Source: Parcubacteria group bacterium (lineage in GTDB: Bacteria > Patescibacteriota > Minisyncoccia > UBA6257 > UBA11618). Taken from it: a stretch of 44,822 bases of DNA. Below the pieces are notes generated by a model. The model saw only the letters and a program-made list of their open reading frames with translations, ran no database searches and was not told where the DNA came from. A program made the translations under genes and the position numbers. Positions 13,165-37,193 of this stretch are shown piece after piece (within the stretch, counting starts at the first letter, position 1; each line of letters starts with the position of its first letter). The DNA is taken from assembly GCA_943349395.1 (NCBI GenBank), contig CALQZH010000001.1, forward strand, positions 19,275 to 64,096, in the 5' to 3' direction.

Positions 13165-13286
13165 GATGGGATTCGCCTGCCGCGGTGGGACCTTACAAAT
13201 GGAGGGTGGGATTCGCCCCTTCGCCGCCTATGCGGCTCGGAATCTTCGGCTCCTATTAGGAGCCTGCGACCCGCGGTTCGAATCAG
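13165..13286 (-). repeat. T-arm palindromic unit(s) downstream of tRNA-Ser
   Basis: Read on the minus strand after the tRNA hairpin: GATTCGAACC (anti-T-arm, 13275-13284), stem A GGCTCCT/AGGAGCC, stem B GCCGC/GCGGC, then GGCGAATCCCACC (13205-13217), which copies this tRNA's own T-arm 3' half without its TT. A second, shorter remnant ending GGCGAATCCCATC lies at 13165-13192. The interior is clearly homologous to the unit at 32448-32526 by tRNA-Val, but there the ends read GATTC, matching that tRNA. Confidence 0.75.
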
Positions 13287-13293
13287 CACCCAC

Positions 13294-13336
13294 CACTAAC
13301 AAAAGAGATGCCGTGAAGGCATCTCTTTTGTTAGTG
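13294..13336 (-). repeat. perfect 19-bp hairpin abutting tRNA-Ser
   Basis: Arms cactaacaaaagagatgcc (13294-13312) and its exact complement (13318-13336) with a 5-nt loop. It starts 0-1 nt after the tRNA 3' end. There is no U-tract, so it is not a textbook terminator, although termination or 3'-end processing remains possible. Confidence 0.85.
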
Positions 13337-13420
13337 CGGAGGAGGTGGGATTCGAACCCACGAGACCCTTTCGAGTCGAGGATTAGCAATCCTCTGCCTT
13401 GACCGCTAGGCTACTCCTCC
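13337..13420 (-). tRNA. tRNA-Ser (anticodon GCT)
   Basis: 84 nt with a long variable arm typical of tRNA-Ser. Acceptor stem GGAGGAG/CTCCTCC, anticodon loop TTGCTAA (GCU, decoding AGC/AGU), T-arm GTGGGTTCGAATCCCAC. CCA is not encoded. Promoter TTGATC-17-TATACT lies upstream, overlapping the start region of the SpoU gene on the other strand. Confidence 0.95.
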
Positions 13421-17867: not shown

Positions 17868-17939
17868 GTCCTCATAGCTCAATGGATAGAGTGTAGCCCT
17901 GCGAAGGCTGAGATTGTGGTTCGATTCCACATGGGGACA
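17868..17939 (+). tRNA. tRNA-Arg (anticodon GCG)
   Basis: 72 nt. Acceptor GTCCTCA/TGGGGAC with one G-U pair, D-arm GCTC/GAGT, anticodon stem TAGCC/GGCTG with loop CTGCGAA (GCG, decoding CGC), T-arm TGTGGTTCGATTCCACA. No CCA. GCG is unusual: most bacteria use ACG modified to inosine by TadA. The last 18 nt are duplicated at 18073-18090. Confidence 0.93.
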
Positions 17940-17981
17940 CATATATCAAACGCCCCCTGCACAGGGGGCGTTTGATATATG
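17940..17981 (+). repeat. perfect 19-bp hairpin abutting tRNA-Arg
   Basis: Arms 17940-17958 and 17963-17981 pair perfectly around a GCAC loop, starting 0 nt after the discriminator base. No U-tract follows. Arm sequence is unrelated to the hairpins at the other tRNAs. Confidence 0.88.
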
Positions 17982-17987
17982 CTTTCG

Positions 17988-18090
17988 TGGATATCGAACC
18001 AGACGGCGCCAATTTTTCCCAAGAGCGAGGCGATTGGATGAAAAATTGAGCGTTTCGACCCGCAGGGAGAGGCGATTCCACATGGGGACA
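17988..18090 (+). repeat. T-arm palindromic unit with an 18-nt copy of the tRNA-Arg 3' end
   Basis: It opens TGGATATCGAACC (anti-T-arm) and ends GGCGATTCCACATGGGGACA. The last 18 nt (18073-18090) are identical to the end of tRNA-Arg (17922-17939). Stem A is CAATTTTTC/GAAAAATTG (18010-18018, 18040-18048), at the same place as the different stem A of the Gly and Val units. Confidence 0.8.
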
Positions 18091-18132
18091 CACATAAACC
18101 AATACCCCTAACGAGGGGTATTGGTTTATGTG
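18091..18132 (+). repeat. second perfect 19-bp hairpin, after the duplicated tRNA-Arg end
   Basis: Arms 18091-18109 and 18114-18132, loop AACG: the same geometry as the hairpin at 17940 but different sequence. Another anti-T-arm, TGGAATCGAACCA, follows at 18137-18149. Confidence 0.88.
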
Positions 18133-18174
18133 TCTATGGAATCGAACCAGAATAGAACCCTTTTTAGGGGGTTT

Positions 18175-18711
18175 TTAAGCGACTGTAAAAAAAAGAAAGA
18201 TAAGAAAAAAATGGATTCCTAAGACAATCGACATCGGTCGATATATCTGATTGAATCCGTATTTTACGGTATACGTTATGAATGTGGAAATAATGAATAA
18301 GACAGCCAGGGCGAGGTATAAGAGAAGGAAGAGAAAAGCCCCGAACCCCACCTCCCTCCCAGAAGGATAAAGGAACCAAAAAGCAACGCTTCCTAATATC
18401 AAAAATGACAAAGGACTGAACATTAGGAAGAAAAAGAGAAGTCGGCCTTTTCGGGTTAATTGGCCTTCTATGGCCGTATCAGCTTCGTTCGGAGCCGATA
18501 TGATATTTTGCTGATTATTTTTGCGATCATGGATCAGTGTTGCTATGAATCCTATTGCGAAGAATATTGGCACTGTGATAATCGTGATCGTGTTAAGGCT
18601 TGGATAGGAGAAAAAATGAAAAGTAAGAGAGTCGATTATGACAAGAAGGTAGAAAAAGGCAACCGCTATAAGGCCGAAACAAAGGGATTTGACAGCGCTA
18701 CGTAACCACAT
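18175..18711 (-). CDS. low-GC four-helix membrane protein
   Basis: 178 aa with four likely membrane helices arranged in two pairs: LIAVAFFYLLVIIDSLTFHF and TIITVPIFFAIGFIATLIH, a soluble loop of about 40 residues with DRKNNQQNIIS, then FFFLMFSPLSFLILGSVAFW and FLLLYLALAVLFIISTFI. A further hydrophobic stretch ends the protein. No family recognised. Base composition is much lower in GC than the argS or tyrS genes, so it was probably acquired. It lies between the tRNA-Arg array and tRNA-Gly on the opposite strand and may be cargo of the tRNA locus. No clear binding site is seen. Confidence 0.65.
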   Translation of the reverse strand: MWLRSAVKSLCFGLIAVAFFYLLVIIDSLTFHFFSYPSLNTITIITVPIFFAIGFIATLIHDRKNNQQNIISAPNEADTAIEGQLTRKGRLLFFFLMFSPLSFLILGSVAFWFLYPSGREVGFGAFLFLLLYLALAVLFIISTFITYTVKYGFNQIYRPMSIVLGIHFFLIFLFFTVA

Positions 18712-18782
18712 GGTCTGATTATATACTTGTTATGGCCTTAATAAAAAATCGAGCATATATTGGGTGCGTAGGGATGAACAGA

Positions 18783-18811
18783 TTGATTTTCTCCGAGGAA
18801 AATCATATGAT
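18783..18811 (+). promoter_or_regulatory. promoter of tRNA-Gly
   Basis: TTGATT (18783-18788), 17-nt spacer, TATGAT (18806-18811), 14 nt before the tRNA 5' end. Confidence 0.7.
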
Positions 18812-18825
18812 AATCCCCATAGAGC

Positions 18826-18896
18826 GCGGGTATAGTACAATGGTAGTACGTTTGGTTGCCAATCAAAATACACGGGTTCGATTCCCGTTACCCGCT
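18826..18896 (+). tRNA. tRNA-Gly (anticodon GCC)
   Basis: 71 nt. Acceptor GCGGGTA/TACCCGC, anticodon loop TTGCCAA (GCC), T-arm ACGGGTTCGATTCCCGT, discriminator T. No CCA encoded. Confidence 0.95.
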
Positions 18897-18900
18897 CAAG

Positions 18901-18944
18901 CTGATACTTAAAACCCCCATTACAATGGGGGTTTTAAGTATCAG
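18901..18944 (+). repeat. perfect 20-bp hairpin after tRNA-Gly
   Basis: Arms ctgatacttaaaacccccat (18901-18920) and its exact complement (18925-18944), loop TACA, 4 nt after the tRNA. No U-tract. Confidence 0.88.
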
Positions 18945-18959
18945 TGTGAAATGGATATC

Positions 18960-19049
18960 GGGAATCGAACCGTAGGTCCCCTGTTTTCAAGAAGGCCTGT
19001 GGCCGACTATGAAAACAGCGACCTCGAGCGGAGCGAGAGGCGATTCCCG
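18960..19049 (+). repeat. T-arm palindromic unit Gly-1 (90 nt)
   Basis: Terminal inverted repeat CGGGAATCG / CGATTCCCG. Inside: stem A CTGTTTTCA/TGAAAACAG (18981-18989, 19010-19018) enclosing GGCCTGTGGCC, then a small stem CTCG/CGAG. The 3' end copies the tRNA-Gly T-arm. It aligns end to end with the unit at 32626-32714 by tRNA-Val. Confidence 0.8.
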
Positions 19050-19069
19050 TTTTCAATTAATAATGAGAT

Positions 19070-19162
19070 CTAACCGTAGGTCCCCTGTTTTCAAGAAGGC
19101 TCGCGGCCGACTATAAAAACAGCGACCTCGATCCGCCAACTGGCGGAGAGAGGCGATTCCCG
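19070..19162 (+). repeat. T-arm palindromic unit Gly-2
   Basis: Nearly identical interior to Gly-1 (ccgtaggtcccctgttttca), with a decayed left end and one mismatch in stem A. Stem B is replaced by the palindrome TCCGCCAACTGGCGGA. It ends AGGCGATTCCCG at 19162. Confidence 0.78.
19132..19147. repeat. 16-nt dispersed palindrome (TCCGCCARCTGGCGGA)
   Basis: Also exact or near-exact at 22103-22118 and 32554-32569, with a looser copy at 29751-29766. Two copies sit inside T-arm units as stem B and two inside terminators, so it seems to be a short insertion-prone stem module of this genome. Confidence 0.6.
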
Positions 19163-22085: not shown

Positions 22086-22135
22086 GGAAATAATCCTCCG
22101 AATCCGCCAGCTGGCGGAGAAGGAGGATTATTTCC
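22086..22135 (-). terminator. 14-bp perfect inverted repeat with nested palindrome after tyrS
   Basis: Arms ggaaataatcctcc (22086-22099) and ggaggattatttcc (22122-22135) enclose TCCGCCAGCTGGCGGA. It begins 1 nt after the tyrS stop. No U-tract; likely a terminator or mRNA-stabilising stem. Confidence 0.6.
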
Positions 22136-29384: not shown

Positions 29385-29706
29385 TGTTTCACGTTTTACA
29401 AATCGATCTGTTTTTTTGTAAATCAGCAAACACTTGAAAATAAGATTTTTTAAAAACATAGGATTGATGAGGATATCGGATTGTAATGAAAATAGAGTGT
29501 TTCACACATGGTAAAAATGTTTCACAGTCGGATATGCGCTTGGTTATTATGTTTTGATGTGTAAAACATTTTTATAAAAATGTTTTACAGTTTTGTTTCA
29601 CAGTCGGATAATGGCTCTGTTATTGATATATCCGAGTGTGAAACATATGTTTCACACGAGAGAATGTTTCACAGTGTTTTACAAAAATGTTTCACAGTGT
29701 AAAACA
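29385..29706. promoter_or_regulatory. cluster of twelve TGTTT(C/T)ACA boxes in AT-rich intergenic DNA
   Basis: Boxes at 29385, 29498, 29518, 29560(rev), 29581, 29594, 29637(rev), 29648, 29665, 29675, 29688 and 29698(rev). Two are followed by the same GTCGGATA. Several pairs are 10-11 nt apart, one helical turn. Half of a ParB parS site (TGTTTCACGTGAAACA) has the same sequence; the first box reads TGTTTCACGTTTTACA. This may be a centromere, replication origin or multi-operator. It fills the gap between the yraN promoter and the terminator at 29732. Confidence 0.65.
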
Positions 29707-32447: not shown

Positions 32448-32526
32448 GGGAATCGCCCCTTCTCCGCTCTTACGACTCGGAATCTTCGGCTTCTTATAAG
32501 AAGCCTGCGACCCGCGGTTCGATTTC
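32448..32526 (-). repeat. T-arm palindromic unit Val-3 (79 nt)
   Basis: On the minus strand: AATCGAACCGCGGGTCGCAGG, stem A GGCTTCT/AGAAGCC, then GAAGATTCCGAG and finally GGGGCGATTCCC. It is homologous to the tRNA-Ser unit; stem A differs by a paired change (CTCC/GGAG there, CTTC/GAAG here). Confidence 0.75.
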
Positions 32527-32533
32527 TTATTGT

Positions 32534-32617
32534 GGGGGGATCGCCTCTCCCTCTCCGCCAGCTGGCGGATCGGTCGAGGCCTCAAAACTTCGTGATTTAG
32601 GCCTGCGGTTCGATATC
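32534..32617 (-). repeat. T-arm palindromic unit Val-2
   Basis: On the minus strand: ATCGAACCGCAGGCCT, a stem AGGCCT/AGGCCT, the TCCGCCAGCTGGCGGA palindrome as stem B, then GAGAGGCGATCCCC. About 9 nt separate it from the units on each side. Confidence 0.72.
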
Positions 32618-32625
32618 TAATAGAA

Positions 32626-32714
32626 GGGAATCGCCTGCCGCTTCGCGGCAGACCATCGATTTTCATAATCGGCCGGAGGCCTCATTGAAAATCGTGGCCT
32701 GCGGTTCGATTCCC
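32626..32714 (-). repeat. T-arm palindromic unit Val-1 (89 nt)
   Basis: Terminal inverted repeat GGGAATCG/CGATTCCC. Stem A CGATTTTCA/TGAAAATCG (32686-32694, 32657-32665) encloses GGCCTCCGGCC; stem B is the perfect hairpin CTGCCGC-GAA-GCGGCAG. It aligns with unit Gly-1 except that both stems have changed with pairing kept. Confidence 0.8.
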
Positions 32715-32721
32715 GCCTCTA

Positions 32722-32770
32722 ATACCCACATTACAAAATACCCTCACGCTGGAGGATATTTTGTAATGTG
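32722..32770 (-). repeat. long hairpin abutting tRNA-Val
   Basis: Arms cccacattacaaaata and tattttgtaatgtggg (16 bp) with a CCTC/GAGG top beyond one mismatch. The right arm overlaps the last bases of the tRNA acceptor. No U-tract. Confidence 0.8.
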
Positions 32771-32840
32771 GGCAATGGGGGAATCGAACCCACGGCATCC
32801 TCTGTGTAAAAGAGGCGCTCTACCACTGAGCTAATTGCCC
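32769..32840 (-). tRNA. tRNA-Val (anticodon TAC)
   Basis: 72 nt. Acceptor GGGCAAT/ATTGCCC, anticodon loop TTTACAC region with TAC (reads GUN), T-arm GTGGGTTCGATTCCCCC (one imperfect pair). No CCA. Confidence 0.94.
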
Positions 32841-36308: not shown

Positions 36309-37193
36309 ATGGCAATGGCGCGGATCCTGAAGGAATATCTCGATTATGTCGAGATCGAGCGCGGCCGTTCGGTGGCTACCCGCGAGGCGTACGCCCAGTA
36401 CCTCAACCGGTTTTTCGACGTGGCGAAGATCGGGAGCGTCGCGGACGTCACCGAGGCGTCCATCCGCGACTTCCGGCTCTATCTCGCGCGCCAGGATCTC
36501 AAGAAGTCATCGCAGGCCCAGTACGTGATCGCGATCAGGAGCTTTTTGAAGTATCTCGCGCGACAGGGCCATGAGAGCGTGCCGCCCGATCGGGTGGATG
36601 TGCCCAAGATGCAAGAGAGGCAGGTGGAGATCCTGGACCATGCGGAACTCATGCGCCTCTTGGCCGCTCCCGATGCGCAGACCTTGAAGGGCGCGCGCGA
36701 CAAGGCGATCCTCGAGCTCTTCTTCTCGACGGGCATGCGACTCTCGGAGCTTTGCGGGCTCGACCGGTTCATCGATATGGCGAAAGAGGAGTTTACCGTA
36801 CGGGGGAAGGGGGACAAGGTGCGGCTCGTGTTCGTGTCGAAAGCGGCGCGCGAGTGCCTCGCGGACTATATGGCGAAGCGCGCGGATGCGGACGAGGCGC
36901 TCTTCGTGAGCGTCGTGCGCGGGAAGGCGATCGGGCGCATAACGCCGCGAGCCGTGGAGCGGCTGATCACGGCCTACGGGAAGAAAGCGGGAATCATGGG
37001 CAAGAAGCTCACGCCGCATACCCTGCGGCACTGCTTCGCGACCGACTTGTTGGAAAACGGCGCGGATCTCCGCTCGGTGCAGGAGATGCTCGGGCACTCG
37101 AACATCTCGACGACGCAGATCTATACCCACGTCACGAATAGGGGATTGAAGGACGCGTTCAAGACGTTCCACGACCGGCGGCGGAGAGAGTAA
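36309..37193 (+). CDS. Xer-type tyrosine recombinase
   Basis: 294 aa, standard for XerC/XerD, which resolve chromosome dimers at dif. N-terminal SAM-like core-binding domain (VATREAYAQYLNRFFDVAKI). Catalytic residues: Arg in LFFSTGMRLSELCGL, Lys in VRGKGDKVRLVF, His-x-x-Arg in LTPHTLRHCFATDLLENG, His in LGHSNISTTQIYTHV with the Tyr nucleophile in QIYTHV. All six are present, so it should be active. CPR genomes usually have one such gene. Whether it also acts on the tRNA-linked palindromes here is open. The ATG lies 6 nt after a TATATT box: likely leaderless. Confidence 0.94.
   Translation: MAMARILKEYLDYVEIERGRSVATREAYAQYLNRFFDVAKIGSVADVTEASIRDFRLYLARQDLKKSSQAQYVIAIRSFLKYLARQGHESVPPDRVDVPKMQERQVEILDHAELMRLLAAPDAQTLKGARDKAILELFFSTGMRLSELCGLDRFIDMAKEEFTVRGKGDKVRLVFVSKAARECLADYMAKRADADEALFVSVVRGKAIGRITPRAVERLITAYGKKAGIMGKKLTPHTLRHCFATDLLENGADLRSVQEMLGHSNISTTQIYTHVTNRGLKDAFKTFHDRRRRE

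Follow-up and report, generated by a model that had tools for sequence, protein, structure and literature searches.

Arrays of folded elements at tRNA gene ends in a Parcubacteria group bacterium

The tRNA-Arg locus and the arrays in the window

The window, which is the whole 44,822-nucleotide stretch of DNA that was analyzed, contains arrays at four tRNA genes: tRNA-Arg, tRNA-Gly, tRNA-Val and tRNA-Ser. The features from tRNA-Arg to the intergenic flank of the next tRNA gene are listed below, where G001 denotes a genome of the same genus, the nearest relative.

17868-17939, + strand: tRNA-Arg(GCG), the target gene (ARAGORN, with the call extending to 17940; Rfam 63.7 bits)
between 17921 (T55) and 17922 (C56): predicted insertion point in the tRNA-Arg T-loop
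17922-17939, + strand: tRNA 3' segment completing the functional tRNA-Arg, read as the contribution of unit 1; identical to 18073-18090
17940-17981, + strand: perfect 20-bp hairpin of unit 1, terminator-like, without counterpart at the G001 empty site
17990-18079, + strand: folded element of unit 1, with R'' (GATATCG AACC), core, GAGAGG and R' (CGATTCC)
18067-18072: GAGAGG directly 5' of the second tRNA-Arg end
18073-18090, + strand: displaced tRNA-Arg 3' end and start of unit 2 (repeat comparison)
18090-18133, + strand: perfect 20-bp hairpin of unit 2, unrelated in sequence to hairpin 1
18138-18219, + strand: inverted T-arm GGAATCGAACC (exact) and probable decayed element of unit 2
18175-18711, - strand: 178-aa membrane-like ORF in the inserted stretch, possible cargo (ORF call; absent from the G001 empty site)
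18781-18825, + strand: old intergenic flank upstream of tRNA-Gly, homologous by reading to the G001 empty site

The tRNA-Arg unit measures 151 bp and consists, in this order, of the tRNA 3' end from C56, a perfect hairpin, R'', a core, GAGAGG and R', with a folded core of ~80-90 nt. A separate hairpin and inverted T-arm belong to the second tRNA-Arg end (R'). The direct repeat (CGATTCCACATGGGGACACATATA / ...CACACATA) starts at 17922 and 18073, a spacing of 151, and is 96% identical over 24 nt, the leading 20 nt being exact. The initial annotation had claimed this recurrence 151 nt downstream, joined to GAGAGG, as well as an inverted T-arm after each hairpin, and both claims were confirmed, the inverted T-arms lying at 17990-18000 and 18138-18148. 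It had further described two perfect hairpins of unrelated sequence with 19-bp arms and 4-nt loops. Both hairpins are present and have no sequence in common, but the arms are 20 bp long (17940-17959/17962-17981 and 18090-18109/18114-18133), and the loop of the first has 2 nt, only that of the second having 4 nt. The folding z-score at the locus was -11.3. Covariance model R1 scored the element of unit 1 at 57.6 bits (E 4.7e-11), this element being one of the 16 sequences used to build the model, and matched the element of unit 2 weakly (18 bits, E 0.057). No credible Pfam match was obtained for the 178-aa ORF.

The other three targets carry further elements, scored with R1 or with R2, a second covariance model.

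18826-18897, + strand: tRNA-Gly(GCC), second target (ARAGORN)
18896-18949, + strand: hairpin at the tRNA-Gly end
18961-19047, + strand: tRNA-Gly array element 1 (R1 97 bits, in training set)
19065-19160, + strand: tRNA-Gly array element 2 (R1 76.8 bits, in training set)
32768-32840, - strand: tRNA-Val(TAC), third target (ARAGORN)
32627-32713, - strand: tRNA-Val array element 1 (R1 83 bits, in training set)
32537-32617, - strand: tRNA-Val array element 2 (R1 35 bits, outside training set)
32449-32526, - strand: tRNA-Val array element 3, B-type (R2 87.2 bits, R2-trained; R1 30.4 bits, not R1-trained)
13336-13420, - strand: tRNA-Ser(GCT), fourth target (ARAGORN)
13209-13285, - strand: B-type element after tRNA-Ser (R2 100.5 bits, R2-trained; R1 28.9 bits, not R1-trained)

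The tRNA-Arg locus thus belongs to a family of tRNA-end arrays, and units of equal build lie downstream of ~1/3 of the tRNA genes in both this genome and G001. Among the 3' flanks of the 44 tRNAs here, the build is present at Arg(gcg), Arg(ccg), Gly(gcc), Gly(tcc), Ile(gat), Val(tac), Ser(gct), Ser(cga), Gln(ctg), Leu(gag) and Met(cat), with less complete builds at Leu(taa) and others. The order is constant: tRNA, usually a terminator-like hairpin, R'', core, GAGAGG or similar, and CGANTCC (R'), the last extended by a variable length of tRNA 3' end. According to a hand count over the tRNA flanks of this genome, a strong hairpin stands directly 3' of the tRNA in 14 of 16 cases with units versus 3 of 27 without (Fisher p about 8e-7).

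Copies of tRNA ends downstream of tRNA genes are not due to chance, since the exact 11-nt start of the tRNA 3' segment recurs within about 600 nt 3' of the tRNA for 10 of 43 tRNAs here and 7 of 48 in G001, while first-order Markov shuffles of the flanks gave a mean of 0.015 per genome and a maximum of 1. An assembly artefact, which had been named as a possible refutation, was rejected because the same build occurs in many independently assembled genomes.

Some other repeats were noticed. Just 3' of tRNA-Val(cac) there are two further copies of T-arm-like tRNA-Val 3' halves without a folded element (L013, G000). The palindrome GATCCGCCAGCTGGCGGA or close forms of it occurs standalone at window positions 22086-22135 and also as an insertion into the second arm of numerous units; possibly it is a REP-like repeat in its own right. 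At 29517-29706, long inverted repeats cluster around TGTTTCACA / TGTAAAACA.

Gain, loss and distribution of units

G001 has an identical tRNA-Arg with no unit. Its tRNA-Arg lies about 50 bp from tRNA-Gly, as compared to about 880 bp in the window, and the flank next to tRNA-Gly is homologous between the two. This single-ended, identical gene supports the earlier proposal that an insertion in the T-loop rebuilt the tRNA end and left the old end behind. The accompanying prediction that an empty site should have one tRNA end and one hairpin was met for the tRNA end but not for the hairpin, as none is retained there. Because the empty site has no hairpin, the terminator-like hairpin seems to come with the insert. 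The age and number of the tRNA-Arg insertions are uncertain, since the displaced end near tRNA-Gly is no longer recognizable. The best explanation of the tRNA-Arg locus is a two-unit array of a wider cassette family, a reading that as a whole we hold with no more than moderate confidence.

Other loci differ between the two genomes as well. There is no unit at tRNA-Met in G001 before the same gene as here. At Arg(ccg) this genome has a unit and G001 only a degenerate hairpin, and at tRNA-Gly(gcc) both hairpins and cores differ. The first Val core here is the third in G001, and the first Gln core here is the second in G001, in each case behind newer units; in these two arrays, the only ones in which it was demonstrated, growth is from the tRNA-proximal side. 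Behind tRNA-Leu(taa) of G001 stand three 100-bp units in tandem, the last of them followed by the original tRNA end, and a double tRNA end with two unrelated hairpins is found also at Trp, Tyr and Leu(gag) of that genome. A fixed arrangement in all relatives would have refuted the insertion proposal; this was not borne out, as empty and differently filled sites exist. The tRNA-Met flank of G001 holds GGAGGGGCGA, possibly an old remnant.

Within the order, units were found in about 18 of 244 genomes (R1 13/244, R2 12/244, combined 18). The carriers span several families, and most relatives in between have no units, giving a patchy distribution. In a phylum sample of 380 genomes, units were detected only in this genome and one other. 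Both counts are lower bounds because the filters of the large searches are strict. An exact 21-base pattern, searched in 84,980 species genomes, was present in 11 contigs, nine of them titled Harrisonbacteria, Yonathbacteria, Niyogibacteria, Liptonbacteria or Parcubacteria LiPW_41, the remaining two being one Patescibacteria group bacterium contig and one further bacterial contig. Core identity is 73-90% to families whose Xer proteins share about 51-57% with that of this genome. Three exact core patterns had no match in viral contigs (IMG/VR).

The fold and its fit to the local tRNA

The alignment of A-type units (n = 16) shows an outer stem R''/R', an inner stem, a long arm and a tip. In the stems, 92.8% of the pair cells are standard, while slid controls reached at most 53%. 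Two-sided changes were found in 36 cells versus 10.3 in shuffles, and the covarying parts are the R''/R' stem and two inner stems. B-type units fold into an outer stem with two hairpins, with compensatory changes, and remain recognizable in other families despite many paired letter changes in the hairpins. In the window, the A-type model detects B-type units and vice versa at E about 1e-4. Most window units belong to one of the training sets, but these cross-matches do not, and because the models detect units outside their training sets, A and B form one superfamily. From our reading of the sequences, the common skeleton may be written R''-AACCG-N-AGGYC-hairpin-GRYCTCGA-variable-GAGAGG-R'.

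A fold of this kind could also belong to a host-encoded regulatory or processing RNA, in whose transcript the T-arm pairs with the inverted T-arm and the covariation reflects RNA function. The strength of the covarying fold, the conserved loop letters and the possibility that the inverted T-arm pairs with the tRNA would all agree with this. However, a terminator-like hairpin usually stands before the element, most tRNAs and most relatives lack the element, its copy number varies, and no Rfam family but tRNA scored above its gathering score. We regard an RNA function of this kind as very improbable. Membership of a known RNA family was rejected on the same Rfam comparison, and matches to miRNA models were palindromes.

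The position of the elements is tightly linked to tRNA genes. For 37 of 44 model hits with loci, a tRNA 3' end lies ≤120 nt upstream on the same strand, including two tRNAs with introns that were missed at first; one more lies at 184 nt. Copies begin exactly at C56 of whichever tRNA stands upstream, and an exact tRNA-end copy of 17-19 nt is present at about half of the checked loci. Among the 37 measured hits, R' equals the local tRNA 7-mer C56-C62 in 34, and R'' is its exact complement in 28. T-loop position 59, which is T in 16, A in 11, G in 7 and C in 3 of these hits, agrees on each arm in 36. The matching of ends holds even for tRNA-His, with CAAATCC. The tRNA-Thr genes of L167 and L180 also bear units at their 3' ends, and each contains an insert, called as an intron by ARAGORN, with group I-like motifs by eye.

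Mismatches to the tRNA are more frequent in R'' than in R', which suggests that R' is derived from the tRNA at insertion and that R'' adapts later, the adaptation being inferred. Nearly identical cores occur at Lys(ttt) and Lys(ctt) of one Yonathbacterium, at Ile and Gln within G001, and at different tRNAs of one genome at L164/L176, each time with ends fitted to the local tRNA. Simple recombination does not explain the transfer of a core between tRNAs with both ends fitting the new tRNA; R'' must adapt afterwards.

These observations bear on the possibility that a miniature transposon (R''-core-GAGAGG, about 80 nt) landed just behind the tRNA and its hairpin, the tRNA 3' end then being an 18-20-nt target-site duplication made by a transposase or a Cas1-like integrase. 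Within one genome, units at different tRNAs indeed resemble each other only in R''..R' (L164, L176), the duplicated tRNA end is always local, and leader-side polarity would fit Cas1-like insertion. Like MITEs, REP/RAYT and IS200/605-type elements, the units are short, non-coding, palindromic and dispersed. Unlike them, they are anchored exactly at the tRNA T-loop with locally matched ends, and a Y1 transposase is missing in most carriers. Moreover, the hairpins at the two tRNA ends are unrelated, so that more than the core must have come in, and none is present at the empty tRNA-Arg site. A fixed transposon end would not fit the local tRNA, as the internal inverted T-arm does. This makes a miniature transposon unlikely in our view. 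The evidence that the units form a structured element family, anchored at one T-loop phosphodiester position and moving within the time span of a genus, is good, and we consider this highly probable.

Candidate enzymes and mode of insertion

Only one tyrosine recombinase was found in the genome.

36309-37193, + strand: sole tyrosine recombinase, Xer family (profile matches), candidate enzyme by elimination only

This lone PF00589 protein is best scored by the Xer models TIGR02224/02225. IntI was not found in this genome, the same protein giving 123.9 bits on the integron model TIGR02249 with a cut-off of 265. No tyrosine recombinase tracks the units: nearly all carriers and non-carriers have PF00589 as one Xer, and it went undetected in two carrier MAGs (G003 and G069). 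Y1_Tnp is absent from most carriers, occurs in G000 only as a 68-aa fragment and does not track the units; neither do serine recombinases, which are absent from several carriers. A dedicated tyrosine integrase, serine recombinase or Y1 transposase was rejected, as none follows the unit distribution. By elimination among these three families, Xer is inferred to be the only candidate enzyme found.

We consider integron-like insertion of cassettes into tRNA T-loops via a folded substrate the best reading, and place it about midway between doubtful and secure. Family, tRNA anchoring, T-loop boundary, end matching, covarying fold, presence or absence, and tRNA-proximal order in two arrays are observed; enzyme and reaction are inferred. 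Small, mostly non-coding cassettes would insert site-specifically at TT^CGA, between T-loop positions 55 and 56. Each would comprise the tRNA 3' half from C56, a terminator-like hairpin, sometimes cargo, and a folded attC-like element, putatively bounded by an inverted T-arm (R'') and GAGAGG^CGANTCC (R'). The 3' half and terminator of the cassette would complete the tRNA and shift the previous end downstream, and because of this displacement arrays would grow from the tRNA side. An inferred site-specific recombinase may act on the folded element and the target T-arm, as IntI does on attC and attI. A single-stranded fold as substrate and a circular intermediate are likewise inferred, no excised circle having been observed.

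Integron R boxes read RYYYAAC and GTTRRRY, with crossover at G^TT. The attC site is an imperfect folded palindrome with an R''..R' outer stem, an inner stem, a variable tip and unequal spacers (PMC2727003). The tRNA units similarly terminate in a folded, imperfectly palindromic structure whose stems covary and whose spacers are unequal; they form platform-proximal arrays (two arrays tested, Val and Gln), are conserved more in structure than in sequence, and at least one is associated with genes. In contrast to integrons, IntI is missing, a tRNA T-loop serves as the platform, most units are geneless, and the outer boxes follow the local tRNA instead of GTTRRRY/RYYYAAC, with R' = GAGAGG^CGANTCC. 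A more specific proposal is an integron without its own integrase, with many tRNA platforms in these reduced genomes at which Xer or an unknown host protein inserts folded single-stranded cassettes, each insertion exchanging the tRNA end together with its terminator and occasionally bringing cargo (such as a restriction-modification system). We put this forward only tentatively, being more inclined to doubt than to accept it. XerCD-exploiting elements (IMEX, e.g., CTX phage with its folded attP) present a folded substrate to host Xer and use dif. By analogy, the action of host Xer on a folded substrate would account for units without their own integrase. We know of no case in which Xer uses a tRNA T-arm.

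In G001, about 3.8 kb separates tRNA-Ser(gga) from a unit, and this stretch encodes a Tsp45I-type restriction enzyme, a LexA/S24-methyltransferase fusion and a DUF4238 protein. One G001 insert is associated with genes, but it is not shown that cargo entered as part of a cassette. Islander-type islands and phages are inserts that regenerate the tRNA and leave a displaced 3' fragment at the far end, with crossover in the T-loop region (PMC4383910). The units likewise regenerate the tRNA, displace a 3' fragment and have empty sites (tRNA-Arg and tRNA-Met in G001). They differ in being 100-200 bp long at most loci, in lacking an integrase, in their tandem arrangement, and in a conserved structured core common to many different tRNA targets.

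The units might be scars of tRNA-integrated islands or phages, i.e., attL/attR sites left behind once the integrase and the body had been lost. A regenerated gene with a displaced fragment is the classic signature of islands (PMC4383910), and the restriction-modification cargo between tRNA-Ser(gga) and the G001 unit would agree with it. Such remnants would not, however, have one covarying core common to about 18 genomes, nor occur as tandem arrays with as many as three copies. Units also occur without any genome integrase besides Xer, and the three exact core patterns are unmatched in viral contigs. We find this origin quite unlikely. By the tests made, the system is not an integron, nor is it an ordinary tRNA island.

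We found no published description of these tRNA-anchored units in the open-access literature, most subscription journals being outside the scope of the search. If integron-like insertion is correct, the arrays are a second, independent solution to integron function, with essential tRNA genes as docking sites where harm is avoided because each insert restores the tRNA gene. They would provide a route for gene gain, possibly of defence genes, to episymbiotic bacteria with few known mobile elements, and would constitute a countable record of insertions. For enzymology, the question is what recognizes a folded element whose arms copy whichever tRNA hosts it.

Genes near other tRNA ends were noted. 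A HicB antitoxin-like small gene lies 3' of the tRNA-Ile array in L006 and L111, i.e., in both genomes, and is followed in L006 by a HicA-like frame (both by eye). In L045 (G000 contig C22), a reverse transcriptase (RVT_1, E 1.7e-21; positions 4-732, cut by the contig start) is located downstream of and convergent to tRNA-Tyr (906-988, - strand), which has a 20-bp hairpin and no unit; a retroelement or intron behind this hairpin is possible.
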